Both the position numbers and the translations under genes were made by a program. Positions 494 to 55,836 of a stretch of DNA of 64,000 nt are shown here, piece after piece. The notes below the pieces were generated by a model. It ran no database searches, was not told the DNA's origin, and was given only the letters and a program-made list of their open reading frames with translations. The stretch's first letter is position 1, and each line of letters starts with the position of its first letter. Source of the DNA: Clavulina sp. PMI_390 (taxonomy: Eukaryota > Basidiomycota > Agaricomycetes > Cantharellales > Hydnaceae); NCBI GenBank assembly GCA_015039315.1, contig WIDE01000119.1:1-64000 (forward strand), given 5' to 3'.

Positions 494-3400
494 TCAAGAA
501 CGAAGTAGCGAAGATCGAGTCTGGCGCATGGACTCTGCAAGGCCGAGGAAAGTCTGCGACAATTGGATCTAGAAAAACAGTTTAGATTAGTCAACCCCTC
601 CTACAGCAACAAATTTCTGTACGCACTGTGTTGATCGCGTTGGTATAGGTGCACGCCGTCGCAGGCGAGTCAAGATCCCGATGCCCTCGCATAGCAGTTG
701 TGTAAACTGATCGAGCTATGTCGGACATCTGAGCCAAGACAGACGGACTACTATCGCGGCTACCGAAGAAGACGGAGTGGAATGGAAGCGGTTTTCTATA
801 TCATAACAATTCTTATCAGCATCCCACAACATCACAAGCAAAACCAACAGCATACCCAAGTTGCGCAGCCTTCTTGCAGAGTGAATGCATCTCATTTTCA
901 GGCATGCTCCAGATACCGTCAGACAAGAAAATGACGACGGGAGTCCTATATGAACAATAATCAGAAGAGGAATTACCCATCAGGCGCTCAGCAAACACCA
1001 ACCTTTCTGTGCTCCAGTACAGCTCCATCAAGCGCTGAGATTCACGAATCGATCCAGCGAAATCGTTATTGTGATTAAGATTGACGCTGATGATTCTGTT
1101 GAGTAGGTCATCTGCCGTCATATTGAAATCATTTTCCAGGACAGTCTAAGGAGAAGTCAGAGGCGCAGATCTGAAAAATTATGACCAAAGCAAATTACAT
1201 ACCTCTGGAGCACTCCCTTCGAGGATAATAGAGTACGCGTCACGACGGATATGGCCACTGTGGGAAGCAGCAGTCTCTCTGGCAGACCAGAATCCGTACA
1301 AGGCGGTCAACACTGCGCCGTAACAATTGTTGTTCACTGCTGAGATTCGGGCCGTGACTGGAGTACCAGCAAGGGGGCGACAGTGATCAGCCATCATAGA
1401 GCCAGAGCGATCGACAATAAATATCCTAAATAAGAAGCGCCATTTAGTAAACCCCAGAACAGAAAAATAGGCCAAGACTTACACATGGAACGCCGATTTG
1501 CTAACGGCAGGGTTCTTGCACTCAAACACATGGCCATCACCAGAGACATATCCCACTGCCCGCGGTGCTGCACGAGCAGGCGCGTGGAACATAGGAAGGG
1601 TACAATACGAAGGTTTTGCTGGCGTGGTCTCATGCGCCTGATGCTCCTCGCCTGCACACTCAGAATCACACTTGGCGAAGTCAGCTTGCTCTTCTACTGC
1701 ATAAGGATCCTTGAAGCCTGGATTGGATTCTAAGTTAGGCAGTGATTTGTGGCATATTTCATCGCTTGAACTCACCGGCCCGTGCCCAATAAAGGTTGTG
1801 TGTGATCCAATCCTTGGCACGATGTGGCTCTGGCGCCATCCGTTTGGTGATATGCTGAATTTCCCGATCGGAACAAGCACGTGGGTTCGACGAACGACAG
1901 TATGCTATGTGGGCGTGGCGACCGAGCTCCTTGCACACCATTGAGCATAGCATAGGTGCTCCTGAATCACCGCTACTGAACTTTCTGCCTTGAATCTCAC
2001 GAACAGCATCGTCATCTCCATCAAGCGTCCAAGTTGTCTGCTCCATCGAGCCGTGACTAGTAGAATGCTCCTGAGCATGACCAAGAGGAAGAGAGCAGAC
2101 ATAATCGCAGTAAGGGCAACGGTTTTCACAGAAGTGGAAAGCATCCGCTTTGAGTGAGTGAGTGTGCGGACCATCGTGGCGCAGCTTGTTCTTCGGAATA
2201 CGCTGCACACAGGCAAGACGGTTCGCAACTTGGGTATACTACAGGCAAAAAGGTCAGAGAGTTGGGTCCTTGCTTCATAAGCTTAGGGTAATACCTTGGT
2301 AAACTGGAATCGTTCCCGTTTGCCCACGAAAGTTGACTCCACAGACTTCGGTTCAGTGGCGACATGGCAGATCCCCGGAGAAGCACACAGATCTTCACAG
2401 GAATGTTCTTGCCTAATCTAGCAATCAGTGACATGATGTTTTTGAGTCTCTAGCTGAAGCACTCACCCGCAAAGATGGACAGCTCCGTTCTGAAGAGCGT
2501 GCCCATGGTCCGCAGTGGAGCATAAATGGGGACATAATTGACACTTCACTGGGCATGTTAGACGATTCTCACATGAGTGCTTTGTGTGTTCCTTGCGGCA
2601 GTCGATGACACAAGGAAGATCGCAGAGTGGTGCGCCGTCTCTTTCGACGGCGTTGAGATGGCAGAGCTGTCCACAAGCGTGAAGATCTGCGTTGCACATA
2701 TGTTCACCATCCTCGTGTTGAGCGGACTTTGTGCAGGAACCTTGGCACCCTTGCTTATCGCTCAGAGAGCAAGGTGCTCCACAAAGATGGAGCTTGACAT
2801 CACAGATATGATCGCCAGGATGGCCAGCGTTGAAGCCGCATCCGTTCTCCTTGTCCATTGAGCATTGGTGGATGCAACGATGAGTTGTCCCGCAATCGTG
2901 TTCGCCATCGTGCCGTTTTCCCTCCACACAGCGCAGGCCACAGCTGGTACATTTCATACCACAAATCTCTACGCCAGTTGTAAGCTCACGAGATAAGGTT
3001 TCAAAGTGCCTCCGCAAAGTGCGAATTTCAGCGTGTTCCGCGGAGAATCGGGAAACGTTCGAGTCAATCCATGTCCGCACATGAAGAACTCGAGCGACCG
3101 CAAGCTTTTGAAGGTTTTCAGCGAGAGAAACGATATAGTCGGCCTCGGGAGCGTGCTGGCGTTCTAGATCGGTGGACCATGATTCTCGTAGTTTGAGGAG
3201 AGCGTCCCGGCGAGCGTAAGGGTTGCCTTCATCTTTCAGGCTAAGCCAGAACACAGAGGTGCTATCTTCATGGGGGATAGCCTCATCGGTGTCGAGGTTC
3301 TAGATTCATTTGTGTCAGCACAGGTACCTCCAAACTACCAATGTAACCCACTTTGAGCTGGCTGTCTGTAGACTCCATATCTGTTACTCCATACATCAAA

Positions 3401-6400
3401 GCATTCGCTAGCATGTTCTGTAGCGTCTGAGCACGGTATGACGCCAGATTCTCTGTTGCCAGAAGGCAAAATAAAAATAAAAATTGGAAAACAAGAGTGA
3501 ATTTGGGAGGCTGAATAGACCAATGAAAATCCTTACGGTCAAGAGCTCCCCAGTCACTTGCTTTCAGTTTTGCCATAAGTGTCTTAAGAGTTTGTAAAAA
3601 CATTGACGCGTTGCCATGAGAAGGCTCCTGATCATCCAGACGGTCCTTGAGGAGAGTCATGAGGTCATAAAACTCTCTAGATTGAATAACCGGCCAAGGA
3701 AGAATGTCCAGCTTGCCCCGATGAAGTTTCGAGATGAAGTTGTCCTCTTGCTCGTCGGCCACGATGCGCTGGAATTTTCCAAAGAATCTGAAAATGTCAT
3801 CAGCATATCACTTCAAGTGAATAGCATGTTGGCGTACTCTCCAACTATCTCATCCGAATCGCCGTCAGTAACATCCTTGATGATGATACAAAGGATGCTC
3901 TGGAAGAGGGTGGGGTTCTGGTCTGGGTTGATAAGGGAGGTGGACGACTGGAAGCTTGTGAATAAGCCTGTGTAAATAATCATGAGATTGGTGTGCTATG
4001 AAGGTCAGAGCATTGGCGAGAAACATACCAGCCAAGTCACGGGAGAGAGCAAAGTTGTTACGGAAGAGAACCAAATTGGAGATGGCAACGTTCAAGAGCA
4101 CCAGCAACATATCCTCCTGGGCACTGCGTTCGATTGAGTGGATACCTATGCATCAGGTGTTAGGTGAAATACATCGTACAAGAGCTACAGGGCATACCTT
4201 CAAAATCAAGAGCTACAACGAGCTCGTCATCAGTTGGTGTGACCGATAGCCAGGCACCTTCCGTACAACGCATGGCTGAACCAGCGAAGGAAGTGTCAAC
4301 AAAGTGGTTCAGAGCATAACTCTTGCCCACAGACTGCTCCCCCATAGAGGAGACAACTTTGACGGGCTATTCGGGGACGAACAATCAGGTGAATAATATA
4401 TAGTCACTTGCCGAGAAACATACCTTGGTCGCCATGTAGGAAGCAAAGATACTCTCGTACCACCCCAGGGTAATGCTACAGAAATGGATAATTACGCAAT
4501 GAGTGGAGCTCCTGAAGACAATAGCCTGTCCTTACCTATTAGCGATCTGCATCACATCGGCACCAAGAAGTGAGCGCTCGAACTCCGCAGAGTTGACTCC
4601 ATTGGCCAGGGGAATGAAGCGGTTTCCAGACGTAATGGCGAGATGGATAGGAATGAGGCAAAGGAGCTCTACAAGCCACTTTCCAGCAGGGTAACTCGTA
4701 ACTTCAAATCCATGGCCCTCTGCGTGAAGGCTGGCGAAGCTAACAGCTTCGATCCTTAGCTCCTCTAGCTTGCCTTGGGTCGGCTTTTGCGTGCTCTTCT
4801 CGAATTGCTGAATGAGCTTTGCGAAATATGCCGCAAATGGTTTATCAGGAGAGTCGGTAATAAATTGAAGCAGAGGAGTCTCTCGCTGAGCCGCAGGCGA
4901 AGAGCGTGTGACAGTGCTTGCTACGGGGAACTTGGTCCAGATCTCAGAATGGATATCCATGAGGCTGTTGTGGCGGGTCTCACGACCTCCATTTTTCTGC
5001 CTGGGACGGTCTTGGGCCTTGAAAGAGAATTCGCTGATGCGAGTCTTAATCTCGAAACGAACGGAGGTCAGCTGGGTGTGCTCCATAGACCATGCAACAA
5101 GATATGCGTTAGAGCGAGGCCCAAATGAGGTAAGAGTGCCTTGAGACCAAGCGAGGGAGCCGACGGAGAAGGATGTTCCTTCTTGGTTTGTCCCGAATGA
5201 GGCAGAGTGATACACTCGAACATCCATCGAATTAGTCTCTTCGTTTGCGTGAAGGAAGAAAAGGCAGGAGCCATCGGGAGCCGAGTGGGTAGCCTCGGGT
5301 ACCCAAGGTAGCCGTAACGACGCGGGTCTATACTGGTAAGTGAGCGAATAGTTTCCAGGGTTCCAGCTGTAGAGTATGGGGGACATACCTGAATTGCTCC
5401 GTGACGAGAGAGAAGACCCTGGCGTGACCTTCGCTGTCAGTAATAGCGAGCTCCTCAGAGCCAGTGAGGAACGATATCGAGCAGATCGAAGCTTCTTCGT
5501 GCTCCTCGCCCCCACCAAGCCATCGGCGTAGATCAATATCGCTACGTGACTGAATACCAAGGAAGTGCTCGTCGATCACGAAAGTGTGGAGTCGATTCTG
5601 CAGGCGAATCGTTATAAGATGTTGCACTAATGCCAAAAGCCGAGCCTGTCAAACTTACATTCAGCTTCGAGTACAGGGCAAGCAGGCGTTTAGGCTCGTT
5701 AACAGTGAACATATAATCCTCTCCAACTCTAGGCATGTCCCATCTCTTCTTCGTCTTTTGTGAGTTGATCGCATCGGCCATATAATTGTCTTCCTCAAGG
5801 AATACATTAACCTTGCCAGCCTCAAGGTCGTCGATGACCACGAGGCATCGACCATTGGCGAAAAGTTGAATATACCTAGCAGTGGATAAGTCAAACCAGC
5901 AGGAGTTTACAACAAAGATCCCTCACCGAAGAGAAGCGGTTAATGGGACAGCAAAGTTCCATCGACCCATAGGGCGGACGACTGGCTTGGGAACGTGAGC
6001 TGAATTTGCGTTGAGTGCCTGAACATCCTCAGCAGCAAGATTCATGGGGTAGACAGTGTATGCGACATGCGCTGGCTCGCGAATCTGGGCAGTCTCGACA
6101 ACATTGTACACTATTGAGATGAAGTCAACGACGATGCCAGATGAGTACAAGCCTCACACTTACTTTTAGGGCCGTGGATCCATCCCGGCCGCGTCTCGAC
6201 AATAGAGTGAATCTTCCAAATCCGAGCACTAGGTCACAGCATCAGGTTAGATGTCAAGTTGATGTAGATCCTCTAGCTAATGACTCACCCAGTGCCGTTC
6301 TCTACTTCCTCCTTATTGACTGCGGCCTTCATCTTCGCTAAGCGACTGGTGATCAACGGTCCGAACGTGTGCTCAACCTCGGCACGATAGGTCGGCTCCC

Positions 6401-8827
6401 CGGCTCTGAACTGTTCCTCGCTCATCCGGTGAGCGAAGCTGTTGCTCTGCACTTCGAGTTTCTCGAGTACCCAAGAAGTCGCCAAGCTCAAGATCTCACG
6501 AGAAGACCTTGGAACACGTTCGCCCCAGTCGTTCGCCACCATGTCGAGCACTGCAGGATCGGGGTTTCTGGAGGCACGGCGCATGAGATTCTGTATCTTG
6601 GCTTCGCCTTCGTCATATCCTCCCATCGCCCATGTGCTAGCACTTTTAACAAAGGCCCCAATCATCGACATGGACGGATCAGCGTTAGGATTTGCTGGTG
6701 GCTGTAGACCAAAGTATGTCTTCATGAGGTCCATATAACCCACGCCAGTAACGACCGCCTCGTCGAGTTGAGCATATTCTTCCACGGTAGGATCTTTGCC
6801 TTGTAGCGCCTCGGAGGCAACAATCAGGCGCTGCTTCATTACTTGATAGTTGGCGTTGGTGACATCGTGGAACCCGGCGCGACGGAATAGATCGTTAGAA
6901 AGAGCATGCAGATGATGGGCACCCTCGACTACGGAGTACAAAAGAGAGATTAGAAACGGCGGGATGATAGTTGATGTCAGACATACCCTTTTCCTCTTTC
7001 TCCTTCTTTTCGTCCGGGTTTGTAGGAAGGCTATCTGCGACGAAACTATTTTGAAAGCTCTGGTTAGTGCCCCAACGAGCATCTCAAACGGCGATCTGTA
7101 GGACGTACGGGTACATCGATACTAGTCGTGCGATCATCTGATCGCGAATATGAGTCTTTAGGCGAGGCAGGTCTGCATCAAACGCATGTCGAGCTTCGTG
7201 CCTGGTCTTTGAGAGTTGTGCATCCTTAGCCTGCTGCAAATCCGCCAAGTCTTTCTTCCACGCATCGCCGAGCTTCTTGTGCCGGTTCCGGAGACCCAGC
7301 TCAAGCAAATGGTTGATACCATCGACGCTCAGGTCCGCCTCGAGCTGCACCATAATATTTTGCTCCCTTGAAACATAGTTAGCGTGGCATAATGTCTGAG
7401 GAACAAGGTCACACGCACTTCAAAGTCGACTGTAGAGCAAGTCTTGCGGCGGTGCGACGTGATGTGTGCTCCACGACACGCTCAGGGATGTTGACTCCGG
7501 CAATGAGAGCCTGTCGAGCCTCACCCGCAACAACTCGAGGAGCGAGGTGAGCTTCCTCAGGAGTGGGAATAAACTCAGAAAGGAGAGGAACAGCAGTCTA
7601 TAGCATCAATGGTTATGAGAAAGCTCAGTCAAGAAGGAGAGATTGTCAAGGTGCTCGCCTTGAATCCATCATGGATCGTAGCACTCTCCTCCTGTTCCTT
7701 CGTCTTTTGGACCGCAAAGGTGTAGAGACGATTATGGGTGGCGGCTTTCTTTCCTGCAGGTTTTTCTTCCTTCTCATCGTCCCAGACGAGGGTATCGGAA
7801 TGTTCCTTGGCCATCAAGCTCACCACTTGGTCAGCTAGCTTAGTCAGATACCTGTGTGAGGAGTCCACGAATAAGTGTTTCTTGCATGGAGGGAAATATT
7901 ACAGGTGAAACGCGAACCTCATGAACGTCACCCGATTGCGCTTCACGGTCGATATCGCGTTATCGTCCCAGGTAGTATACTCTGGCCAAAAGATAACATA
8001 GCCGCCTCGGTGCTTCGACATCGGCTCAGCGGAGTCTGGAAGGAAGTATATGCCAGTCTTGAGGCTCGGTTGAGGCCGGCCCATTTCATTCGGAGGTGCC
8101 AAAAGCAGCTGTTTGCTATTCATAGTTTCATTGAATCAGCATTCCATGTTACTGCAGATGCTGATATGCAAGCAGCTCACATTTCAGGATCGACTGCACC
8201 CAGCACCTCTAGAAAGTCAACAAGAGGCGGAATACTCCCATACACGCCGATAGGTTGCAGAATTACTTGGTCGAGTGAGGAGAAGTCAATCTACGAGACC
8301 AGAGTCAGACGAAGGGTACACGTGTAAGCATAATAAGTGGGTTGGGCGTCACCTTAGTCAATGAAGAGTATGCTCCGGGGTAGAATTGTTCAACAAGCTG
8401 GCTGACAGACTCTTGGGAGATGATGATCTTGTCGACAACACCACCCGAGCCTTGTTCGGAGAAGAGCTCTAGGAGTCGATACATCCCCTTGATGCGAGGA
8501 AGTAGATCTAAATCAGGAATAATTGGCCCCGTCATGGGGACTGAAACAGGCTCTGAGGGGGAACGCCACTGGTCAGATCGCTTGGTCCTCGGCATAACGA
8601 TCGCACGTCAACATACCATTCCCTGGCTTCGGCGCTGCGGCATCAGGAGCGGCAGCTGGTACAGTTCACGATGAGTAGGTTTGTAAACATTCGAGGGAAG
8701 ATGCTGTACCTGGAGTTGGTCTCGGGTTGGCAGGAAGTCCCACTTTGGGCGCATCGGCAGCGGCTTTGCTCAGAGGTGGTGGAGGCTTCATCGGCGGCGC
8801 CGACTTCTCGGGAACGGTAGGAGCCAT
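494..8827 (-). CDS. Giant GBP-like GTPase with Cys-rich repeats and vWA domain, copy A
   Basis: A multi-exon gene of about 2,300 codons by analogy with copy C. The chosen start (8827) opens a Pro/Ala-rich leader (MAPTVPEKSAPPMKPPPP) joined by phase-compatible introns to a long alpha-rich N-terminal half. The G domain lies near 4345-3850: P-loop GEQSVGKS, a Thr-bearing CTEGAWLSVTP segment, ALDFEG (G3) and an IIIKD in the G4 position. This matches the G1, T-x-GIW, DxEG and RD layout of guanylate-binding-protein and VLIG GTPases. Next come Cys/His repeats (about 3000-2000; CG..C...CNADLHACGQLCH type), which probably bind zinc. The C terminus is a vWA domain with MIDAS motif DRSGSM (near 1412-1395) and FLSDG (near 920), ending SMRQTRSSLLRS and stop. 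That tail is conserved in copy C in the same reading frame, which fixes the last introns. One intron (7598-7658) appears to be GC-AG. The product is likely a cytosolic, nucleotide-driven assembly; its substrate and role are unknown. Confidence 0.85.
7598..7658 (-). other. GC-AG intron in giant GTPase copy A
   Basis: On the minus strand the exon reads GAT GGA TTC AAG and then gcgagc; the next exon starts ACT GCT GTT after a tag acceptor. Copy C has a GT donor (gtgcgc) at the same position, and without splicing the frame stops shortly after. Confidence 0.65.
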
Positions 8828-9324
8828 GTTGGAAAACGAGGCTCCCGGTACAGTGGAGGATTAGGACGTGCTGGTCAGAGACGCTGGTGGTAGAGAGGCA
8901 AGACGCGCCCAATTGAAATCGTGTCTGTGTTCCTGCAACTCAGTTTCTTCGATAACAAGGCATCAACTATTCCCGCTGCAGCGCCTCGTTGTTGAATTGG
9001 ATATAGTTCTTGGACCCGAGTTATCACAAAGGCCAATTATTTGAGATCTTGGTTTCAATGGCCAAGAGCACTGCTATCTCGGTGTTGCATCGCTTTCGGG
9101 AATCCGGAACGCATATATTTGTGGGGGATGCCAAACAGGTGTAGTCAAAAATGAATTGCAAGGTTAAGGATAGTGCTGATGTGGAGGAAGATCAGGAAAC
9201 AATGATGGGTATCGAGCGATGCAATACAAAGTATTCAAAGCGTGCTTGGCTGATGATGCAGCTCAGGCAAAAGAAGAGTAAGGTAATTGTCCGATCAATA
9301 AAAGCGGAATCAGGGCGGGAAGTC
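8828..9324. promoter_or_regulatory. Spacer between giant GTPase copies B and A
   Basis: About 500 bp separate the end of copy B from the start of copy A, both on the minus strand. It must hold the promoter of copy A. I see no vWA-like coding remnant here, although copy B lacks that domain. Confidence 0.5.
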
Positions 9325-12300
9325 TCAAGAGAACCATCCACGGCCCCAGGACGTGTCAGTGGATTTCGAAGCAGGCGGTGATCGAGTTGCGGGAGAAGAC
9401 TTTTTGGCCCAAGTAGTTTGCTCGAATGTCCCATGGCCCGTACTGTGGTCTTGCTTGTGCCCATATGGCAACTCGCAGACGCACTGGCAACTTGGGCACT
9501 TTTCACCACAGAAATGGAATGGTTTTGCGTCCAAAGAGTGAGTATGTGCGCCATCATGCTTGAGTTTCCCAGGAGGAATCTTCTTCGCGCAGACTCGAGA
9601 ATGGGTTTGTTGCGAGTGCTGGAAGGTAATGATAAGCGTCCGCCCCTTGATAATAATCGCCCTGATAGCTAAACTCACTTTACGCGGCGGCCGTCCATTC
9701 TTGGGTTGATTTTGAGCAGTGGGACTGACGTCGCATGCACCATCGCCTTCGCACCATTTGTCACATGGATGTTCTTGCCTAGAATCAAGGAATGAGGCGT
9801 GAGTAGCTAGCCTTCAAGGCGATGAGCGGAAAAGCAACACACCCGCACAAGTGCCGAGCCCCAAGCTCCAAAACGTGATCGTGGTCTCGCGTAGCACAGG
9901 GCCGCTCGCATAATTTGCATTTAGCCGTGCATTGGTTTCGGTCCTTGCACAGATGACGATCGTGCTTCTTTCGGCTGGTGTAATGGCCAGTTAGGATCGA
10001 TCGCTATGCGCCTTGAATGGGATGAGGATACTTACAAGTCGACGGTGCAAGGTTGCGAACAGTGACCTTGCGCTGATAGATGACAAGGAAGACCACAGGC
10101 GTGGGTGATGGATTCGCACATATGTTCCGAGTCTTCGTGGCCAACATTCTTTCGCAAGCAGGGCGATTTAGCCAACAGGCAAAGAGAGGAGTGAGCGAGG
10201 TTAACAAACCTTAGAGCACACAGCCATGCAACCGGCCCTGCCCTTGTGTGAGCAAGTCTTGCCACAAAGATGAGCCTTGACGTCGCAGCTAGAGTGATAG
10301 TTCGGGCTGTTAGCGCTATTCGATAGATTCAGCACCATCAAGTGCTCACATATGCCTCCCGTCATGGCCAGCGCTGTGAAACAAATGATGTGAGGACATA
10401 GTGTGCGTTGCTGAATAGGGTGCCACGTACTTGAATCCACAGGGTACTTTCTTGTCCAATACACATATTTGAATGCATCGATGGTCAGTGGTGCAATTGT
10501 GCTCTCCGCCATGGCCCTTTGGTCTCAAGCAAAGTAGTGCACAATGCTCGCATGAGCTGCCGCACACCTCGACGCCAGCCATCATTTCCTTCTTGAGGGC
10601 CTCAAACTGTAGTCTCAGTTTGAGAATATCTGGTTGATCTGCCGGGAATCGTGCAATGTTCGCTTTGATCCAATCTTGCACGCGGCGCTGCCGAATCTTG
10701 ACGATAGTGCGAAGGTGTTTGTTGAGAGCTTCCAGATAATCCTTTTCGCTCACTAGCTGGCGCTTCGGTGGAGATGGCCAATTGGCTCGAAGGGCGCCAA
10801 ATTTGAGCTCTTTGGATGTTGCGTCCTCGCCCTCGTCTGAGGCGAGCGCGAAGACGTGGCCGGTATCTCTTAAAGTCTCAATGGCTTCTTTCGTATCGAA
10901 GTTCTGCATGAAATATCACGGAAGATTGACTGTAAGGATTCATCCAGATTATGAAGCAAATATTTCTCTAACCTTGAGCTGGCCTTCCTCTGCATCTTCT
11001 CCGGTGAATCCGTGTTTGAGAGCTTGGGCGAGCTGGTCCAAGATAATGGAGACACGGCCCTCCGCTAGATTAGCTGTAAGGGTGAAGAACTTTATCAGTA
11101 TATGACTCTTGAGCAGTCCTGTAGCACGTACGATCCAGTGATGCCCAATCACTTGCTTTCAGCCTTGCCATGAGAAGCTTCAGCGTCCTTAGGAAGTTCA
11201 GGGCGTTCCCATGCGTAAAAGGCTTGCTATCAAGTCGTTCCTTGAGGACACCCATCTCAGTGTAGAATTGACGAGATTGGATGACGGGCCACGGAATGAT
11301 GTCGAGTTGTCCGCGATGAAGAGTCGTGATGAAATTCTTTCCCTGACGATCATACACCATCCGCCTAAACTTGTCCGCAAACCTACACCATGAGATTGGT
11401 TAGAGTTTTGGCCATCTCAACGCTATTTAACGTTAACTTACTCAGCTGCAATTTCGTCAGCATCGGTTTCTACCACATCCTAAATGAAGGTCAGCTTCAG
11501 GAACATTTCCGGGGCAGAAAATATTATCCACCTTGATAATGATTTCCAACGATGATCGGAACAGGTTAGGGTGTGACGCAGGGTCACCTAGCAAAGCAGC
11601 CGACGATTGGAAGCTCTGTTGAAGATCATATCTTAGCACTTATCAAATTAAGAGCGAATCCCTAACGCACGTTGAACATCCCGGCGACATCTCGCGAGAG
11701 GGCAAAGTTATTCCGGAACAATACCTGGAAGGGTGTCAGTCAGCAATCCATGAGTGCATCAGCTTCAGCTCTTACCAAGTCTGAGATGGCCACATTGAAT
11801 AGAACCAGGAGCATGTCCTCTTGGGGAGTCCGCTCGATCGAGTGGATACCTGACAACGATAGATATCAGCTATTGAACGAAAAACATAACGGAACATCTC
11901 TATGTTACCTTCGAAATCAAGCGCGACAACTAATTCCCTATCAGTTGGCGTTACTGACATCCAGGCCCCTTCCGTGCATCTCATCGCGGATCCAGCGAAG
12001 GTAGTATCGATGAAATGGTTCAAAGCGTAACTCTTGCCAACGGATTGTTCACCTGTATAACATATCATTCAGAAGGGAGTTTCGGTCAGCGAGTGAGTGG
12101 AACAACATACCCATTGACGAAACGACACGGATTGGCTAAAATAAGAAGATTAGTTGGGTCCTTTCCAGTCCCAGATGGCAGAAACGTACTCGGTCAGCGA
12201 AGTATGTACTCAGAATACTTTCGTACCACCCAATGGTGAGCCTAGTAGCAATCGTCGTTAGAGGTAAGACTAACGTGAGCAAGTACTAATGTGGTTACTC

Positions 12301-15300
12301 ACTCCTCGGCTACTTCGGTGTGCTTGAGGCCTAACAGTGACCTTTCGAACTCTGTCGACCTAATACCATCTTTCAACGGCACGAAGTTGTTCCCGTCCGC
12401 CACAGCGAGATGAAGTGGTATCAAGCACAGCAGCCCAATCAACCATTTGCCCACTGGGAATGTGGACGGAGTAGGGAACTGTGCACTGAGCACGGCACCC
12501 ATATTCGGGAGCGTCGAGATGACAATATCGGAAAGACTCGTGCCAGTCGGCTTTTGTGTCTTGTGCTCGAATTGCTCGATCATGGTCCGGATGTACTTGG
12601 TGAATCGCTGATTGGTATGTTGAGACGTGACAAAGTGCAAGGACGGGCGCTCTGAGGCAAGCTCAGCACGAGCATGCTGGATCGTCGCTTGAACAGGGTA
12701 TCGACTCCATACATCGGCCAAGCAATCAATCAGCGAGTTGTGCTTCGGTTTATTGGGCGACGGTAGAGAAGCTCCAAGGCCGGAACCCAAGGATGACTTG
12801 GACGCCGCATTGCGTGCCGCGGAGAACTGGGCTTTGATCGCAAAGTCGCTTGATTTCGTCGTGACGAGGACCTTGATGCTGTGCAGGTTGCTGGATTTCG
12901 GAGACGAGTAAACGAGGTATACGTTGTTTCGGGTGATGAAGGAGGTGAGTTGCGGGAAGAAGATCATGTCCGCCGAGATGTCAAGATCAACGCCAGGTGC
13001 CGTGCCGAATGATTCAGTGTGGCATGCTTTCGCGTTCACAACTTCTCCAGAGGCATTGGCAGTAAGCAGGAATACGCAATTACCGTCAGGCGAGCAAAGC
13101 ACCGAATGAGTCCCTTCTGAAAGCCGAATGGACCCATTTCTATGGAAAGCAAGGGTAAGAGACAGCGGTAAGTATGTATCAGATCAAGTTGCTTACTTGA
13201 ACTTCTCAGTGACCAAGGAAATAATCTTCGTGAGCCCAGAGTTGTCGACGAATACCACTTCCTCTCGACCAGGAATGAGGGCTACAGTCTCAATCTCCCC
13301 AAGCGGATTCTCAGAAATCGAAAATAGGTCTAATTCACCGCCCTTGGAACGGAGGGTGGAGAATGTCTCATCCATGGCATAGGTGAAGAGACGGTTCTGG
13401 ATCAAATATGTGAGTGATCATCCTCATCCATCTGGTCAGGATGCCAACAACTTACGTCTAGTCGCGAATATAAACAGACGAGTCGTTTGATCTCATCTAC
13501 GGTCATGATGAAGTCGGCGCCAACCCGAGCAAAGTCAATTTGGCGAGTAGCCTTCCGCTCCCGCAAAGCACTAGGCATCGTCGTCTCCGTCTCCAGATAG
13601 AAGCGGACCTTTGAGTCCACTTCGTCCATGATAACAACGAGATACTTTCCGTTCGGGAAGACGTGAGTTGCTCTAGATAATATAGGCCATGGCGTTAGAT
13701 AGAAGGTAGATATCAATTGAACGGAAGGACAAACTTGAGAGTTGATCCCGGCTGGAGACGGAGCTCCCATTGTGCGCTTGACAACACAATGGGAGTGGGG
13801 ATATGCTCCAAATCGGCTGTCACGCCCTGAACATCAGCAGCTGTGAGTCCTATGGGTTGAACGGTGTATTTGATGTGTGCAGGATCCTCTTCAGAGAGAG
13901 TCTTAGAGATTGCGAAAACTAAAGGTGCTAGAAGTGAGCCATTGTCGATGCGTAGATAGACATCCCGAATTACCTTCCGTTGAGGGCGACTCTGGTGAAG
14001 GCTGTGGACCAGCAAACGAGTGAATTTCCTCAAGATGCACACTACGCCACAAGAGTCCAGATTCAGTTCAACATATCCATCTCAAAACGGCAGGCTTCAA
14101 AGATCGCAAATAAACCCACCACTCCTGACGGGTCTGCTCAGCTTGGTTCAGATCCCTCACGAACACGTCCAGCCGTGGCTTCCTCATCTCGAAGAATCTC
14201 ATCTCCACCACCGAGTCCGACACCTCTTTGATAACAGCATTCTGTTCTGCGCTAATCGCCTGTGCAATCACTGTCGTCTTTGAGTCAATCTTCGCTCTAA
14301 GCCAGCTCGTCGCCAAGCGATTCAGCTCCGCCACAGAGCGCGGGAACGACGAGCCCCACGCTGGCTGGAACAGCTGCTCATTCAAGAAGACCAGGTCATC
14401 GACTCTTGCACTCTCATCAACCCTCTGCTTGACGACATCGTGCCCGGTGCCGAACATGTGCCGGAACGACTTCTTCATCTTGTGCATAAAGCCTCGTGAT
14501 CCAGACGCTTCAACTGATGCTGTGGCAATATCCTGATTCAGATCAGAAATGACGTTGTAAAAGGTATTGCCACCAGCGAGGATAGCAGCATCGAGCCTGT
14601 AGAATTTGTGTGCATTGAGCCGGAGCGCGTTTCGGGTGATAATGTCTGTGACGACGGAGAAGCGGGCTTTGAGGGATTGGAATTGCCCTGGGTCGACACT
14701 GGCAAACTGATTGATGCGAAGAATCGTGGACGGATCTAGCTCATCGAGCTCATGGACATGTTGGCCTATGGGTTGGGTTGGTTAACGAGGTTCATGCACG
14801 GACTGGAAGAAGAGTTGTGCGTGCCTTGAGGTGGACCTTGGGCGACTAAATCTATTTCCATGGCTCGGAGAGGGTTTTCAGCCCACCTGGATAACGATCA
14901 GTTTGTTGAGCTCACACGAACGATATCGCTCGGGAGGCTGCAATATAAACATACCTGTGCATCCCCGAAAGTGCACCAATGAACTGATTCTTGACGTGAT
15001 CCTGGAGTCGCGGATTGTCCAGTGCCAACGCGTCATCAACTTCCATGCGACGGAAAGTTAGTTCATCTTGCTTCGCGACTTCCATTCCAGCCAGATCGCT
15101 ATGATAGGCGTCAACTAGAGCTTCATGACGTTGCACCAGCCCAGCGTTAACCAGCGTGTTGATTGCACTTTCAGTTAGTTCTGAGCCGAGGGAGAAAGTT
15201 CGTGTCGAGTCACTACAGAATAGAGTTCAGTCAATAGGCATTCATGAAAATGTCGAGAACAAAGATTCGTACCGAAGGAATGCTTTGAGCTGAAGAGGGG

Positions 15301-16442
15301 TCAGGAAGACGTCTGCTTTGGTTCCCAGCCATCTTGCCGGCACCTCAGCACCAGTGATGACGGCCTGGCGCTCGTCTCCAGGGATGAGGCGCGGTGACAT
15401 GGGCCCTAGCTGACTAGCCGTTCCTGCCACGCCATTGAGCAAGTTGATCTGAGGAATGTCAGGGGGAGTTATGAGTATTCTAATAATAGTTCGCGATAAA
15501 AGTGCCCAAGCGTACCGTGGAACCAGGTCGAGTCGACACGCTCTCCCGCTGCTCCTTTGTTCGTTCAACACCAAAGCTGTACACCCTCCGCGCGAGCTTG
15601 GCTGGTTGATTGGGTCGTAGATGGTTGGCGGAGGCAGCCTGAGGAGGGTCTTCTTTCTCCCATACGAGGGCTCTAGCGTGTTCATCCGAAATTAAAGAAA
15701 CGATCTGGCGAGTAATCTTGGTGAGGTATCTAAGACAAAACGGATTAAAGGCCATTAACTTGTACAGATTAGGAGGGGGCACCCACCTCATAAAGGTTAC
15801 TCGATTCCTCTTGACGGATGCATTGGCATCGTCGTCCCAAGTATTTGGCTCAGGCCAATACACGACATATCCTCGGTGCGCTCCGCTATGCGGTTCAGCC
15901 TGTCCTCGGATGAAGTACAGGCCTGTCGGTAGCCTCGTTCGCCTAGTAAACATTGCATACCAGTTAGCAGCGTCATAGATGAGTTTCGAGGTGGTTGACA
16001 TACATCTGGCGCACATTGACACCGAATCGCCCGAGGAAAGCAACGAGCTCGGACTCGCTTCCGTAAATGCCCACAGGTTTCAGCAGAATGCTATCAAGCG
16101 CAGCAAAGTCGATCTGTGATTTTCACAATATGAATACATGTGAGACGCGAATACTAATGAGAGAGAGAGAGACCGCGCGCGTACGTTCGTGATAGATTCA
16201 TAGGCACCGGGAGCGATGGACTGGATCAGCCTGCCTACAGAGTCTTGCGAGATGATAAACTTGTCAACTATCCCACTCGAGCTTCGTTCCGCGACGAGTC
16301 CGAGTAATTGATATATATTCTCTGGTTCGGCCACAGTGGCGGAATCTCGTCGGGAGGATGCACTCCTGCGTACGGATGTGTCGACGCTGACAGGGGAGGA
16401 GGGCATGGGAGGCATGGTTGACACAGAAATAGCTCCTGCCAT
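9325..16442 (-). CDS. Giant GBP-like GTPase with Cys-rich repeats, copy B, lacking the vWA domain
   Basis: This is the tandem paralogue of copy A on the same strand. It starts at an ATG at 16442 (MAGAISVSTMPPMPSS) and shares the N-terminal module (..IYQLLGLVAERSSSGIVDKFIISQDSVGRL), the helical middle, the G domain and most of the Cys/His repeats. The G-domain motifs are GEQSVGKS near 12050, CTEGAWMSVTPTD and ALDFEG, so GTP binding should be intact. Sequence is clearly more divergent from A and C than those two are from each other. The homologous frame runs through HTHSLDAKPFHFCGEKC and GTFEQTTWA, where A and C continue for over 300 residues into the vWA domain. Copy B instead reads a short unrelated Ser/Thr/Pro-rich tail and stops at 9325. 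It is therefore either a truncated gene or a natural vWA-less form that might act together with a full-length partner. No internal stop was noticed, but exon borders were not all verified. Confidence 0.78.
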
Positions 16443-33855: not shown

Positions 33856-34060
33856 TTTGGCCAGATCGAACACGATCGAGCAGGATCGAGCATAAAGAGG
33901 TTCCCTGATGCGAGCCATCCCTCCTCCTCGAGTCAATTGCATGTAGCTTGTCATAAACGTAGGCAACGAGGTCCAAACTTCGCATAGCATTGTATAGTGT
34001 ACGTTAGAGGCCGCTACCGATATCTGAGGGTCGATTGCCATCTAGGAAGCCGCGCGCGGA

Positions 34061-35186: not shown

Positions 35187-35199
35187 TTGCAGAACATCA

Positions 35200-43696: not shown

Positions 43697-44061
43697 AGCT
43701 GCAGGCGACCTCCAAATTTCTGGCCTGTTCGAGTTGTCACGTGCCGGCCCCTCGACACAAACAGCTCTCAATCCAACCTCTCATTTAGTCATTGAGGTTC
43801 AAGTAATCTAACATTACTAGGCTCTCAAAGTAAATATAACCAGTCCCCGTGAGATAGGGATGGGATTTATTCAGACATAGTAAAGTTATCGTCCTGCCTG
43901 AGTCGAGCATGAGCACGGACTAGCAACCACATCTGCCTCATGTGCAAAGTCCTCGCAATTTACACATTTTATTCATGTCTAGCATACGCATACAGGCACT
44001 CGGCAATGGCGGATCAAAATTGCAGACGGAATCGGGAGCGGAATCAGAAAGCCGAGAAACC
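43697..44061. promoter_or_regulatory. Upstream region of uS4m and 3' flank of MFS gene 1
   Basis: This 365-bp spacer between two minus-strand genes holds the MFS 3' end and the uS4m promoter. No further feature was seen. Confidence 0.4.
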
Positions 44062-46243: not shown

Positions 46244-47249
46244 GATGGACGCAGGATGAGGGCTTCGGCCCTCCAGGTTTTACGCGTGATTAGAAACGGG
46301 GAATGAATAAAGATCAGCTGACGAAATTGGCGTCGACACCGGCAAGATCATCCTCGAGGCATCCACCCACAAATCGAATAGCTAGAGAAGAAGAGCTTTG
46401 GCAAGTTTTTGTCCTTGTTTTTTATGTCGAATTTCACAGGCGCCATTCATGCGCAACCCTGCTCCTCTCCATACGAGAGGATGATGATAAGGGCAAGCCC
46501 AACGGTGAATGCATAATGCGGAACTTGCTACTCGTCAAACTCACTCAAGAGCAGTTGCAGTTAAAGTGACTGCAAAGAAAGAGTGCAAGAAGACCTCGAG
46601 TTCGCTGACAGAGCCCAATGCAGTGGAGCAAACCGACGCTCCGGTCCGGTAGTATGGTACCGGTGAGGAGCTGAAATGACGAGAGAACACGAGCAGGATG
46701 TAAGGCTCTTAGGATGAGGCTTGGCCGCAAGGGAAAGCTGAAGGGTAAATAGACCTATCGATTGCCTTCTGCTGTTCAAAGTCATGCAGTGAGTGCATCT
46801 AATGTGGGTGTTGTGCGTGCTTTGTTTGGCCATGGTCGCTCGTCTCCCATTGGTTGGCTGTTAGGCTCCTCTTGCTCTTGGTGACCACGGCTCCATGGCC
46901 CATTCTCACTGAGATGAGGTTCCGCCATATTGAATCGCCTATACATCGTTTGCTTACTCTGGTGCTAGACGCCGCAGATCTAAGAGCGAAAGTTATCCTC
47001 CTTGGCTTTGATATGGACCCGCCCTAAAGCTTGGCATACCCCTCGGCGTTCAGTATTCAATAAATTGCGATAATTGAGAACGACTGACAGAAGCTGTGCT
47101 GCCACTGATAGAACAATGGCCTGAGTTGCATGTACCTGGGGGAATTGCAAATACAAAGATAATATCTCCAACGACCGCGTCTCTTTCCAGACCCCCGCAG
47201 TTCTTGCTTCTTCTATCTTCCAAATCACTAGAAACCCTCAGTCTTCATC
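46244..47249. promoter_or_regulatory. Divergent upstream region of MFS paralogue 1 and giant GTPase copy C
   Basis: One kilobase without supported coding sequence lies between two start codons pointing away from each other. It must contain both promoters. No repeat or RNA gene was recognised. Confidence 0.45.
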
Positions 47250-50200
47250 ATGCCTCCCAGTGTTTCTGGGACATGGGCGTCGGTGAAGTCATTTCTGCCT
47301 ATGAACAAGTTGGGTGATGATCGTAGTAACAAGGTGCAGAAAACACCGATCGTGGCCATTCCCGCCCCTCGAGGCTCGATGATACCTACCACTCCCCATC
47401 CAAGTTCCCGACTTTCCGCGGGCAAAGCGGGAACGACAGCACAGAACCCGGCCCATAGGGTCACAACAGGTGGGTAAACGAGCGATTGAACAGCAAACCA
47501 TTGGGGAGTACTGACGCCGAGGTCGCCTTCTAGAACCGGCTGTGGTCTCAAAGAGCGCCCTGGCAGATCCTGACTTGGATCTCCTGCCTCATATCAAAGG
47601 GATGTATCGATTGCTGGAGCTATTCTCCGAACAGGGCTCAGGCGGCGTTGTGGACAAGATCATCATCTCTCAAGACTCTGTTGGGCGGCTTGTCGAGCAG
47701 TTCTATCCTGGGGCTTATTCGTCGGTGACCAAGGTGCGGCGTATCTATGTTGAAAGAGAGTTTGTAGTTTTTGATTGCTTTCCAATCGCAGATCGACTTT
47801 TCCGCCCTTGATCAAGTCACCCTAAAGCCAATCGGTCTCTACGGTAGCATCCCTCCTCTTGTTGATTTCATGTTCGAGCTAGGGGTATTTGATGCCAAAG
47901 TGTAAGTGGTATTGAAGCCTGCACCATAGTATATCTTCTGACGAATGATAATAGTAAGGCCCTTCTCTTAGCTCCCCCCAATGAGATGGGTCGCCCCCAG
48001 CCCAGCCTCAAGACTGGAGTATACTTTCTTCCAGATATGGCTGGCCCCAAGTCAAAACATCGGGAAGGTTACATTGTATACTGGCCAGAATACACTACAT
48101 GGGATGACGGTGCCACATCCACTGTAAAACGAAATCGAGTGACGTTCATGAGGTACCGTATTCACTCCTCTGATGGCCGCAACCCTATTCATTCACCTCT
48201 CGCTCAACCCTCTAGGTATCTCACAAAACTGGCCGACCAGATCATAAGTCTCATGTCAAAAGAGCACTCCGACGCTATCATTTGGGACGAGGAGAAAGAA
48301 GAGAATCCGACCAAAAAGAAGGCAGCAGTGACCCATGATCGTCTGTACACATTTGCCATTGAGAAGACGAAAGAACAAGAAGAAAGCGTTACAAAGCATG
48401 ATGGGTTTAGGGTGCGCACAGTTAATTACATTATTTTGTCTCGGCTGATGGGTACTGGTCGCGTCTTAGATCCCAGTTCCAGCCCTTTCAGGAGTTAGCC
48501 CCGCTCCTGAGGAAGCCCATCTTGCACCTCGGGTTGTGGCAGGTGAAACTCGGCAAGCCATCATCGCTGGATTAAACGTTCCTGAACGCGTTGTCGAGCA
48601 CACTTCGCGTCGCCGCGCATCAAAACTTGCGCTGGAGCCAGCTTTCCAGTGCGTACTATATCACATTACTATGGTCTTCTTCTGTCACTGAATTTGCTCT
48701 CGAAGAGAGAAAACTTTGAAGATTCTGCTAGGCGCGGATCTCGATTTTGACGGGATCAACCTCTTGCTAGGGCTTGGCCTGCGTAATCGGCATAGAAAAC
48801 TAGCCGACGCGTGGAAGAACGACTTCGCTGATTTGCAGCAGGCCAAGGAAGTGCAACTCTCGACAGAAAGGCGTCAAGCTCGTGACGCTTTCAACGAAGA
48901 CCTCCCTCGTTTCAGGGCTCATATTCGTGATCAGATGATTGCTAGGCTTGTGACGATGTATCCGTAAGATTGACGCCATGACTCTTGGGTAAGATGTCAG
49001 GCTGCTTACTAGAATTTTGGGTAGCTTTCTGGTCGATAGCTTTCCTAGTGATACGGAGGTTCACACCGCGAAGGGATCACAGACAGAAAACAGTAGGAGT
49101 CTTGTCGCCTTTAGAACGACCGTAACTTGATCCCCTCTTGGCTTTTAGATCAGGGGGCCCATCGGCTCACCCTTCTGTCTGACGAAATCTTTCACCGCAG
49201 CTCGTTCCACGTGATAGGTTTTCTGCCGTATGAAAACATGAAGCAGCGAATGGTTGTTGCATCCGAAGCTCTTCAAGGAAAAAATCCCACTATGGAAGAT
49301 TATGCCGAACTCGACAACGCAGTCGTCACGTCTGTGGGTTATATGGATCTTATGAAAGCCTACTTTGGCTTTGCGCCTGTGGACCCCTCTTTCTCAATGA
49401 TGGGTGCGTTCAGGGGCTCCTGGGGGAGAGGAGCTTTTGATGAGGGCGAGTTCCACGTGCAAAACCTCATGCGAAAGGCGTTGACCCATCCGGACACTTT
49501 GGTCCTCGAGTTGGTGATCAACTCTTGGGCCCAATACCTCCCGCGCTCCTGCAGTGAAATCGTCAATTTGGCGACCAGGGGAGTGCTCGAGAAGCTGGAG
49601 ATACAGAGTAACGCCCTAGCGCATAAGCTAAGTGAGGAACAACTTCGAGACCGAGAGCCTGCATATCGTGTTGCTGTGGAGCGCACCTTCACACCTTTGG
49701 TTACGAGTCGTGTGCAGCAAATGAAAGCCGCAATGAACAAAGCGGAGGAGAATAACGCAACTGGGTGAGTAATTGGCGTTGTGTCTGATTCATCACTAAC
49801 GAAAAAAAATTGAATCTCAGCACTCGCGTCTGGAGGATTCATTCTATAATGTACGCTAGGCAAGGTCCAGCATACGGCGTTAGATCAAAGAGTAAGTAAT
49901 ACGACTATCAGCTAAGTAGGATGGAGACTAAATTTTATCACAGTGTATGAAGTTAAGGAGACCGCAGAAATTCTTGAGCCCACTCATGTCTCGTACACCA
50001 TCTACCCGGTCAACCTTACAGCCGATGACCTTCGAGCCCTGAATACGGATGTCAATCATATTCCCAAGCCCATTGTGCGCCATGCAGCGTTGTGGAAGTT
50101 TTCTATTCCTCTGACATCGTCTCTGCGGTGAGTGTCGAGCATTTCGCTAACTTTCTTTCCTAATTCGGACGCCATCCATGGTAGTTATCTCCAGCTATTC

Positions 50201-53200
50201 GGGAACGGTCGATGTCTGGCCGTTGTTGACGATCTCCTTGAGGGAAGAGTCAATCTGTTTCTTGAGGAGGACACATACTTGCCAGAGGCCATTAGCTCGC
50301 AGAAGAAAAAAAAGCAATTTTCTATATCACGAGTGGGGGAAGACTACTTTTTCTCTGTCAATGAGTCTAAACGCTTGCTTGCACTATATTCCAAGTTGGA
50401 GGTGGGCGCTGGTCTTCGCTACGAGTCAACTGGAGGCCCTACTCATATCGCTTTTAGACTCGACTATACACATATGCGATTGACGAGCACTTCCTGAGCA
50501 TTCAAGGCCGTGGGGATATTGACCTTCGCCGATGGCTCGGAAATGGCCAGAACGACTCTCAAGTGCACTCATTGGTATTCCTGGCGGGCTCTGACGAGCT
50601 TGTAATCACAGATAAGACGGGACATGCAAGGATATTTTCTCTGGTCACAGAACAGTTCAGGTGTGCACTTCCCTCTCGGAAGCGCTATACAGCCGCTCTC
50701 TGACCCAATTTGTAGACCTGCGTCCGTGCGGTTACCTTTTGTCCCTGACGCTACAAGCTCGAACGCGGATGGCTCGTGTGTTTTGTTTTTCAAGATGAAC
50801 GAGAACAACTCCACAACCGTCAGAATATATCACTGTGCATCCTTTGGGACGCGCCAGGAAGGGATTTCATTTACATTCCCTTCTCTCTCTTGGTGTCAAG
50901 CTTCTCTCACTTCATATGGTCCTCGCTCCAACGCATACCTAGTGGCCTGGTCCATGGATCACACTCAACTGATTTCGAGTCGTTTTGACATCAAGACGCG
51001 GGTTAGTGAGGTCTCCATCAAAACGGAAGGTCGTCCTCTCCAGAAGAATAGAGGCCGTGAGACTCATCACAATATTATCTTGGACATCTATCCCGAGATT
51101 TGGACTAAGTTTCCGGTCGCGAGCACTATCAAACGATCGTCACCAGCATCGCGGCGAGAACCGCCACTTCTCCAGTTCGTTACGGAGTCTCCTGAAAAAC
51201 CGTTCAGAGAGTACTTCACGAATGTCATTCGCCAATTCAAGAGAAGTACTCAGAAGCCAACTGGCGGGAGATTGGAAGATCTTCGAGTTGAGGCGGTCAG
51301 CTTCCACGATATCTACAATCTGGGTCTCAACTTCGAGGCTACAAGCTATCCTGCCGGGAAGTGGCTTGTCGAGCTTCTCTGTCTGATACCTATCCATATT
51401 GCCATCACATCAGGGAACCGTTTCATACCTCTAGCTAATGGTGTTGCCAGTGCAGAGTTCGAGCAGTCTTTGCTCGGGCTCGACGTTATGCAAATTGCAA
51501 ACAGGTGTGGATTCTTTTGAGGGTCTTGTATATGAAGCTAAAATAATTGGCCCTTGCGCCTGCTCAGCATCACCCTTGGATGGTATGAAAGCATATTTGC
51601 TTCCTACATGGCGACAAAGGCATGTTTTTTCATGCCATAGCCTCAGAAATCCCGCCAAATACCTATTAATAGTCTTTCTCAATAGCCTGTCAAGGTCATT
51701 TCGTCAATGGGAGAACAATCTGTTGGTAAAAGCTACGCTCTGAACCACTTCGTGGACACCTCCTTCGCTGGTTCAGCTATGCGATGCACCGAAGGCGCTT
51801 GGCTTTCCGTCACTCCGACGGATGATGAGCTCATTGTTGCCCTCGATTTCGAAGGTATGCAGCGCTGTTCGGTTTTGGTGCGGATGTGCTGTTCTTATGT
51901 TGTTTGGCAGGGATTCGCTCGATCGAGCGCAGCGCTCAGGAGGATATGCTCCTTGTAGTCCTCAATGTGGCTATTTCCAATCTGGTACTTTTCCGTAACA
52001 ATTTCGCTCTCTCTCGCGATCTGGCCGGTGTGTTCTTCTAGCACTTGTTTGGCACAATATGGATTGACCTTTTGTACCTGTGGATAGGGCTGTTCACCAG
52101 TTTCCAGTCATCAACTTCTCTCATCAACCCGGAACAGAATGCGAACCTCTTCCAGAGCACCCTTTGCATCATCATCAAAGATGTCACTGACGGCGATGCT
52201 GACGAGATTGTTGGAGAGTGCGCCAACACCTATTTGTCTGCTGTTACTCCTTTTTAACCTCCTTCCCGGCAGATTCTTCGGTAAATTCCAACAAATTGTT
52301 GCTGAAGAGCAAGAAGGCAACTTCATCTCTAAACTTCACCGCGGAAGACTGAATATACTCCCATGGCCCGTGATCCAATCCAAAGAGTTTTATGGCTTGA
52401 TGACTACGCTGAAAGCCCGTCTTGACAGCCAACCACCCACTCATGGGAATGCCTCAATGTTTTTGCAGACGCTGAAAGCTTTAATGGCGAAGCTGAAAGC
52501 GAGTGACTGGGGAGCGCTCGATCGTGAGTGACGCTTGCTGCCTTGTCCAAATCACTGCACCGACGATCATTCACACACCATAGAGAACTTGGCGTCATAT
52601 CGCGCCCAGACTTTACAAAATGCACTCGCAAATGCCTTGATATACGGTGTTACTGAACTAGACTCTATGAATAATCAACTCAAGGCATGTGATACACGAT
52701 CTTCTGATATTCAATTCACTTATTTGTCCTGCACCAGAATCTTGACACAGATACGGTCATCGAGCACGAAACTAACGGCTCAGAATTCTGGCTTAGCATT
52801 GACGATGAGGTCAATCCTTATGCCCGCCGCGACAAACTAATCAAGCTACGAGGCTCGTGGTCAACAGATCTTGAACGACAACATGCGCCTGAACAGGACT
52901 ATATTCTATCCCTGACGGAACATCTTCGACGGCTCGCAGATGCCCGAGTGCGCCATGTACGCTTGTGGATCGAATCTAATGTAAACCGTTTCTCCTCTGA
53001 AAATGCGGAAATACGGAGTCTACAACGACGCTTTGAGGCACTTTCCCGCGAGCTTACTAGTGGTGTCGAGATATGTGGATTGAAATGCGCATCCTGCGGT
53101 TTATTGTGCGTGGAGGGGAAGCGACATGGTGAGCAGCAACATCTGTTGAATCGCGCTTGATGTAACCATGTTATGTTTCAGAGGGAGACCACGATTGCGG

Positions 53201-55836
53201 GACCACTCATCGGTGCATCCATCAGTGTTCAATGAACGACGTTTCTGGTTGTGGCTTTCATGCAGGTCACGCTGGAAACCACATGTGAGTCCACCTGAGC
53301 CCGGGTATCATTACAACGTCTAATTAATACAATTTCTAGCTGTGATGTTAAGCTGCACCTTTGTGGTGTTCCTTGCTCCCTTAGCGACAAACAAGGGTGT
53401 CAGGGTTCCTGCACGAAGGTACAAACAACATAAGTTACGTATAGATGCTCCTAACACTCCCATTGGTTTAGGCCGCTCAACATGAAGATGGGGAGCACAT
53501 GTGTAACGCTGAACTCCATGCCTGTGGGGAGCCTTGCCATCTCAATGTGGTCGAACAAGATGGCGGCCCGTTGTGTAAACTTCCTTGCGTGATCGACTGG
53601 TGAGCTTGAGCAGATGGCTGAAGCCCACAGAAACTAACGCCTCATATTTGATACTAGCCGAAAAGAACATAAGAAGCATACCTGTGAGAACCGGTCGGTA
53701 CCTCAGACGCACTCACTGTTTGATGTCGATTCTAAACCATCTTGATAGGCTCACATGCCCAGTCAAATGCCAGTTGTGTCCACATATTTGCTCGACTGCC
53801 GATCACGGCCATGCTCTTCAGAACGGGGCCGTCCACTTGTGCGGGTGAGTGGTTCCTTCCCCAAGCTCTACTAGTTTGAGCAGTTGTGACATACTATTCC
53901 CAATGAATCAGGCAAGAACATCCCTGCAAAGAGCTTTGTGCCTCGCCAGGGATTTGCGAGGTGGCCGTTGAACCCAAGTCTGTGGAATCAATGTTCGTGG
54001 GCAAATTTGAACGGTTCCAGTTCACCAAGGTATCCATAAGTGCCCTTTAATCGGTATTGGGTATCTAAAACACATTTTTAGTTCACCCAAGTTGCGAACC
54101 GCCTTCCTTGCATTCAACGTATCCCGAAAAACAAGTTACGTCACGAGGGAGCCCACACTCACTCGCTCAAACCTGATACCTCCCACTTCTGTGAAACACG
54201 TTGCCCTTATTGCGACTATTTCTGCACTTCTCCTTTCGGTCACGCCCAAGCCATACATTCGACGAGCCATGGCTCCATGGAGCAGACAGTTTGGTCGATT
54301 GACGGCGACGAAGACGCTGTTCGAGAAATTGAAGGCAGGAAGTTCACCAGCGGCGATTCTGGTGCTCCGATGCTGTGCTCAATGGTCTGCAAGCAATTGG
54401 GCCGTCATGCTCACATTGCCTATTGTCGATCATCAAATCCTCGTGCTTGTTCAGATCGTGAGGTCCAGCACATTGCAAAGCGTATGGCACCAGAGCCACA
54501 CCGTCCGAAGGATTGGATTACACACAAATTACATTGGGCAAGAGCAGGTAAATGGCCCCGTAAAACTGCTCAAGACAGGCTACCTATCTGAAACTCGTGT
54601 TTATTCTGCAGGGTTTGAGGACCCGTATCCTGTGGGTGACCAAGCCGACTTTGCGAAATGTGACTCGCAGTGTGTAGGCGAGGAGCACCAGGCGCTGGAT
54701 GCCACTACTCCAGCAAATCCCTCGTATTGCACCCTTCCGATCTTCCATGCGCCCGTGGCGGCAGCAACTCGAGCCGTTGGGTATATTTCTGGAGATGGTC
54801 ACGTATTTGAGTGCAAAAATCCGGCTATCCCCAAGTCCATGTTCCATGTGTGCGTATTTAATCTGTTACAATAGCGAGTTCATGTTAACGAACCTTCCAC
54901 GATAGTATCTTCATAGTGGATCGCTCTGGGTCCATGTCAGATACTCATTGCCGCCCTCTCGATGGAACTCCAGTCACATCTCGCGTTAAGGCGGTGAACG
55001 ATAACTGCTACGGGGCAGTTTTGACTGCAATATATGGATTCTGGCATGCTCGTGAGACGGAGGCAGCGCACCGCGGGCATACTCGCCGCGATGCGTACTC
55101 AATCATCCTTGAAGGAGATGCACCAGAGGTATGAATATACTTTTCGGGAGATGGAATACAATAGGTCATCTAACATCCGCGATAGACTGTCGTGGAAAAT
55201 GACTTCGATCAGTCTGCAGATGCTCTACTCGAGAAAATCCTTGATGTTAGTCTATGGCACGGTAATGATTTCGCTGCCTCGATCCAGGAAGCCCAACGAT
55301 TGATGGTGGAATATTGGAGCACGGAAAGGTAAAGTAGTGTAGAGAATGATCTATGCCCTTCTAATCGTCACTTTCCAGAATTCCTGTCGTCATCTTTTTG
55401 TCAGATGGCATCTGGAGTATGCCTGACGATGAGATGCATCAACTCAGCAAGAAAGCTGCCCAACTCGGGTAAGTATCACCATTCGTCCTAGGTTGATGAA
55501 CGACATCGAGCTCAACGGAATGGATTTATAGCATGCCGCTTGTCTTCCACTCTGTATTCTTTGGCAGCCAGGACAGCAGTCCTTCCGTGTTGGCGCAGAT
55601 GGCCGACATAGCTCGATCGGAATACACTACCGCTATGCGATCTCATCGTGACCTTGAACCGGCATCCAAGGCCTGTACTTATACAAATGCTATCGATACG
55701 GTGCGTTCACCACGCGTAGAGTTTCTCAACCTTTATGAGGCTGATTTCCATGCTCCCTCAGATTCAACTTTCCCAGACTTTCCTTGGTATTGCGGAATCG
55801 ATGAGGCAAACTCGATCTTCCCTCATCCGTTCCTAG
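47250..55836 (+). CDS. Giant GBP-like GTPase with Cys-rich repeats and vWA domain, copy C
   Basis: This is the best-resolved member of the family, about 2,300 residues. It starts at ATG 47250 (MPPSVSGTWASVKSFLPMN) and no frame break was found. The N-terminal module (residues 75-480) contains LLPHIKGMYRLLELFSEQGS. A helical and mixed region follows to about 1,200. The G domain starts near residue 1,230 with GEQSVGKS (51710-51733), then CTEGAWLSVTPTDDELIVAL, DFEG, and IIIKD in the G4 position. Cys/His repeats span about residues 1,590-1,980 (examples CNAELHACGEPCHLN and CPVKCQLCPHICSTADHGH). The vWA domain covers the last 240 residues: IFIVDRSGSM near 54919, FLSDG near 55400, ending SMRQTRSSLIRS. 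Most introns are 50-70 nt. One, 51620-51685, is GC-AG where copy A has GT. It is closer to A than B is. Expected to be soluble; the job is unknown. Confidence 0.88.
51620..51685 (+). other. GC-AG intron in giant GTPase copy C
   Basis: The exon ends GCG ACA AAG before gcatgt and resumes at CCT GTC AAG GTC just upstream of the P-loop. Copy A has gtatgt at the homologous site, so a T-to-C donor change is inferred. Confidence 0.7.

Follow-up and report, generated by a model that had tools for sequence, protein, structure and literature searches.

The question raised by this locus is whether fungi possess giant GTPases of their own, comparable to those of the GBP and VLIG type that are known from animal immunity. 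The window (the whole stretch of 64,000 nucleotides analysed here, part of contig C23 of the 39.4 Mb genome of Clavulina sp. PMI_390) contains three homologous giant, intron-rich genes, of which copies A and B lie on the minus strand and copy C on the plus strand. As judged from sequence and predicted structure, the family that they represent forms a fungal subfamily of its own among the giant large GTPases; within the dynamin superfamily it belongs to the GBP/atlastin/VLIG branch, and it is distinct both from canonical GBPs and from Sey1.

Gene copies and the GTPase module

Copy A (494..8827; ATG at 8825-8827, stop at 494-496) is full-length and has been deposited as DL93DRAFT_2172249 (P0001); copy C (47250..55836; stop at 55834-55836) is likewise full-length and has been deposited in pieces (P0241 and P0121). 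Copy B (9325..16415) is diverged and stops after the Cys/His block; its end coordinate was taken from the open frame, and gene models vary there. The first-pass annotation, made from the sequence alone, had placed its limits at 494 and 55836, positions that indeed mark where A and C stop, and had named these two copies, but the homologous genes are three, B included. It had also placed all motifs in one frame: this is true of the polypeptide and not of an open reading frame, since in the gene models copy A is interrupted by 25 short introns and copy C by 32 (29 of the latter measure 44-67 bases, and the 32 amount to 2,081 bases). The models cannot be relied on for the first and last exons, which were read by eye, and their exon joins are predicted. 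The protein size derived from A and C is about 2,100-2,200 residues (2,200 in the A model), and the order of domains in both is an N-terminal alpha/beta domain, a helical region, a beta-rich region, the large GTPase (LG) domain, a helical bundle, an array of about 70 conserved Cys/His positions, and a vWA domain. In the A model the N-terminal domain starts at approximately residue 14, the beta-rich region spans approximately 690-960, G1 lies at 1141, the array starts at 1529 and the vWA at 1964.

The LG domain covers 3352..4366 in A and 51686..52523 in C. The motif order given by the first-pass annotation (GEQSVGKS, CTEGAWLSVTP, DFEG, IIIKD) is found in all three copies, the second motif reading CTEGAW(L/M)S, and corresponds to the succession G1, T-x-G-x-W, D-x-E-G and (K/R)-D of the GBP/atlastin/RHD3/VLIG branch. 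In copy A these motifs occupy 4319-4342, 4250-4264, 4196-4207 and 3873-3887, and in copy C 51710-51733, 51788-51802, 51845-51856 and 52168-52182; in copy B they run from 12053 to 11543, with G1 at 12030-12053. When 32 relatives chosen out of 240 (many of them fragments ending before the vWA) were scanned against Pfam at E <= 0.01, matches were obtained to RHD3 in 31, to GBP in 29, to URGCP_GTPase in 26 (best 1.1e-11) and to VWA_2 in eight. Copy A itself matches URGCP_GTPase (5e-6), RHD3 (1.9e-5), GBP (4.7e-4) and VWA_2 (0.013), all below the curated cut-offs, and P0124 matches VWA_2 (6.8e-10), VWA (5.4e-7) and GBP (2.9e-5), all three over them. The RHD3 cut-off is reached by neither of these two proteins, nor is that of URGCP_GTPase (55 bits, against 25.9 for A and 18.3 for P0124). 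The predicted fold of the LG domain and bundle resembles GBP1 and atlastin, with atlastin-1 as the top Foldseek match and RNF112 among the best; the bundle is directly behind the LG domain in the predicted structure, where the GBP1 and atlastin matches extend to model residue 480. The profile searches and structure prediction that the first-pass annotation had proposed as checks thus place the P-loop region among the large GTPases, in agreement with the GBP-like class it had suggested.

The family is set apart from canonical GBPs and from Sey1 because three features were not found. In GBP and atlastin the P-loop has a catalytic arginine (GxxRxGKS); at this position, 200 of 205 pattern-matched proteins have Ser and only one has Arg. 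A CaaX-like C-terminal end, which defines only some GBPs, is present in one of 117 deposited proteins. Lastly, a crude scan (19-residue window, mean hydropathy >=1.8) revealed no conserved transmembrane pair after the bundle, such windows occurring in 18 of the 117; P0124 has one at 471-479. These results bear on the proposal that the proteins are membrane- or endoplasmic reticulum-shaping enzymes of the Sey1/RHD3/atlastin type with added domains, devoted to GTP-driven tethering or fusion. RHD3 being the commonest Pfam match and atlastin-1 the top structural match speak for it; the outcome of the hydropathy scan, the multi-copy character of the family, its length of about 2,200 residues and a separate gene with Sey1-like motifs (contig C154, named from those motifs) in the same genome speak against it, and we consider it unlikely.

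The conserved N-terminal domain (7644..8517 in A; 47569..48408 in C) may be a second LG domain in degenerate form; two LG domains are likewise predicted in human GVIN1. The idea is backed by topology and a weak fold match and given no backing by the profile test. The domain occurs at eight places in the genome, one of which (G000:C291:290286-291114) has no LG match among the scored candidates; this could be a diverged copy or a gene consisting of the N-terminal domain alone.

The Cys/His-rich array, with its linker to the vWA, covers 1490..2963 in A and 53074..54842 in C. At E <= 10 it matches neither RING nor RBR nor any further Pfam family, and no PDB chain by sequence. The vWA and C-terminal tail follow in A (494..1490; DRSGSM from 1412 and LSDG from 926, both downward) and in C (54842..55836; DRSGSM at 54919, LSDG at 55398). 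The vWA with a metal-ion-dependent adhesion site (MIDAS) announced by the first-pass annotation is present in both copies, with Asn in place of the MIDAS Thr, and the vWA fold and the MIDAS pattern (D-x-S-x-S, T, D) are found in the family. The predicted vWA fold resembles those of Rpn10 and of a TFIIH subunit, presumably p44/Ssl1. It has to be considered whether the protein is a ubiquitin ligase or ubiquitin-linked scaffold, in which the array would transfer or bind ubiquitin with the LG domain as its switch, after the pattern of RNF112, a RING-LG protein. The abundance of Cys and His and the presence of RNF112 and Rpn10 among the fold matches are in line with this notion, against which stands the array's lack of Pfam and PDB matches just described; its probability is low.

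Transcripts, relatives and selection

P0001 (2130 residues) represents copy A as one deposited protein (97.6% identity over the last 500 aligned residues), differing from the A model in its first residues and in one Cys/His segment, where part of the array is read in another frame. The deposited models of B (P0141, 99.8% identity over 553 residues) and C (P0241 and P0121, the latter with 99.3% identity over 1023 residues) are fragments. Keyword surveys would miss these genes because the deposited models misread or fragment them. This fragmentation, together with the predicted exon joins in A and C, could suggest that GTPase and vWA come from separate genes or transcripts joined by a gene-model artefact. 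Single deposited proteins of many genera, however, run from LG to vWA, and near full-length open reading frames sit on contigs without room for the introns: on the longest contigs of P0060, P0083 and P0089 (2291, 2254 and 2322 residues) only 255, 349 and 239 bases are left beside the frame, and on those of P0028 and P0076 900 and 1287, versus the 2,081 intron bases of the C model. These data indicate that GTPase and vWA are made from one spliced transcript. Intron-poor genes in the five species may be another way to fit the short contigs; the artefact itself is hardly credible.

Searching with a 1026-residue query region retrieved 638 proteins at E <= 1e-3. A listing was made of 120 of them, and all but one of these 120 cover 97-100% of the query (P0001 covers 47% in its best local piece), identity outside Clavulina is 50-55% among the matches listed, and those that are named all belong to Agaricomycetes, a class that was looked up for Clavulina (order Cantharellales) and Serendipita and that we assume for the other genera. 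A second search added Rhizophagus, placed in Glomeromycotina by look-up, and Funneliformis, Entrophospora, Cetraspora, Gigaspora, Acaulospora, Racocetra and Dentiscutata, which we take to belong there as well (identity 32-59%, with 13-98% of the query covered). The multi-copy family foreseen by the first-pass annotation thus extends well beyond the window: the genome has at least eight LG loci on six contigs; the vWA proper is present at five loci (A, C, C258, C34 and C222), and only the stretch preceding it at C79 (a contig end) and C40; and at least seven Imleria badia proteins are among the matches listed. A gene tree was built from 717 columns for 82 chosen proteins and rooted on the Glomeromycotina rows. 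In it Clavulina groups with Cantharellus, and boletes and Mycena are intermixed. Eight of the 19 taxa with at least two rows are monophyletic, among them Suillus (11), Serendipita (5) and Lactarius (3). The five Glomeromycotina rows are not recovered as one clade, which we attribute to rooting on them. The tree describes old and recent duplications, roughly along species lines.

Comparison of A and C over 2,124 codons shows a codon-level signature of strong purifying selection in every region (nonsynonymous differences per site, pN, 0.155; synonymous, pS, 0.776), the LG domain having a pN of 0.055, the array one of 0.091 and the helical region one of 0.274; ratios (0.07-0.10) are given for few regions only because synonymous sites are close to saturation. 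Between A and B (1,664 codons; pN 0.397, pS 0.798) the codons of B are still constrained, and this copy could function without a vWA. Selection on A and C, along with a tree that roughly follows species, argues against a fast-diversifying recognition gene and so weakens the self/non-self role that the first-pass annotation had entertained. A heterokaryon recognition family would account for the variable copy number described above, and the accessible part of PMC12881547 includes vWA in a figure-type legend on the domains that fungal incompatibility proteins contain; it is nevertheless the weakest reading of the family and very improbable.

As for the rest of the window, copy C is bordered on its two sides by another pair of paralogues, oppositely oriented (44065-46261, minus; 60956-63178, plus), one exon of which matches MFS_1 below the cut-off (1.8e-6), and this suggests a local segmental duplication. 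A gene with RRM domains (26172-26714) has at its start two tandem units of 118 bases (25996-26232) that are 98% identical. Ordinary neighbours are YIF1 (23577-24098), a DNA polymerase lambda fingers domain (40899-41237) and an S4 domain (43070-43600).

A GTP-switched scaffold as the proposed function

The best reading of the family, to which we give an even chance, is that of an assembling scaffold switched by GTP. It is well established that in GBP1 and atlastin GTP drives dimerisation of the LG domains and a swing of the bundle. By analogy, GTP would cause the LG domains of two molecules to dimerise and the bundle to swing, while the Cys/His array, stiffened by metal, would hold out the vWA as an arm that grips a partner or the next molecule. 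In this manner GTP would make individual molecules join into a scaffold or coat, laid over an intracellular target picked by the N-terminal half. The most likely setting is the cytosol, with a part in cell-autonomous defence or in quality control like that of GBP1 and GVIN1. Several observations weigh against the scaffold: the GBP1 and atlastin structural matches share just 10-15% sequence identity, the P-loop arginine is replaced, metal binding by the array is inferred, the MIDAS Thr is Asn in A and C, and a vWA query gives no match in copy B, for which reason the vWA may be dispensable in some copies.

A role in defence as such is plausible by analogy, though less likely than not. A more specific version, which we regard as rather doubtful, holds that mushrooms and arbuscular mycorrhizal fungi possess their own giant tandem-LG GTPases (degenerate LG, helical stalk, active LG, metal-bound Cys/His arm and vWA) that would coat intracellular invaders or damaged cargo on GTP. 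If true, this would be a cell-autonomous defence layer unnamed in the fungal-immunity reviews PMC12881547 and PMC10197012, where the terms guanylate, GBP, dynamin and GTPase gave no match, and thus a candidate layer of fungal immunity beyond the NLR-centred view. A conserved, multi-copy fungal family that combines the same GTPase module with an unmatched Cys/His array and a vWA is, in any event, a testable case of GTP-driven assembly in fungi.

Comparison with known systems

Searches of an open-licence library listed no paper on such a family, in keeping with the first-pass annotation, which knew of no named system with this order of domains. In the parts available, the Mx survey PMC11789081 takes in fungal dynamin relatives and does not mention guanylate or GBP, and PMC9804665 deals with Sey1/atlastin and does not mention GBP. 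One Blastocladiella transcript resembling an interferon-induced guanylate-binding protein appears in the accessible part of PMC1550239, so that a fungal GBP-like gene is not without precedent.

The intracellular vWA proteins (the TFIIH subunit and Rpn10) share 12-15% identity with the fungal vWA and belong to a different setting. Atlastin, Sey1/RHD3 and RNF112 share the fold of LG domain and bundle as well as the RHD3 Pfam match, and the Sey1-like gene of the same genome also has a G1 of the Q-S-x-G-K-S type, whereas in the family described here no conserved transmembrane segments were seen and RHD3 stays below the cut-off for A and P0124. GBP1 has in common the LG fold, the helical bundle and the order of the four motifs; the fungal proteins differ from it in the P-loop residue, the rarity of CaaX-like ends and an approximately fourfold length. 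Human GVIN1 and the VLIG/URGCP giants differ in that the family here is fungal and without interferon, and the accessible part of PMC11974893 mentions neither a Cys/His array nor a vWA for GVIN1. These giants are likewise very large, with the LG domain late in the chain and a URGCP_GTPase match in 26 of the 32 relatives, and GVIN1, predicted in that source as an LG domain, a helical linker and a second LG domain, has an order that may be echoed by the fungal N-terminal domain.
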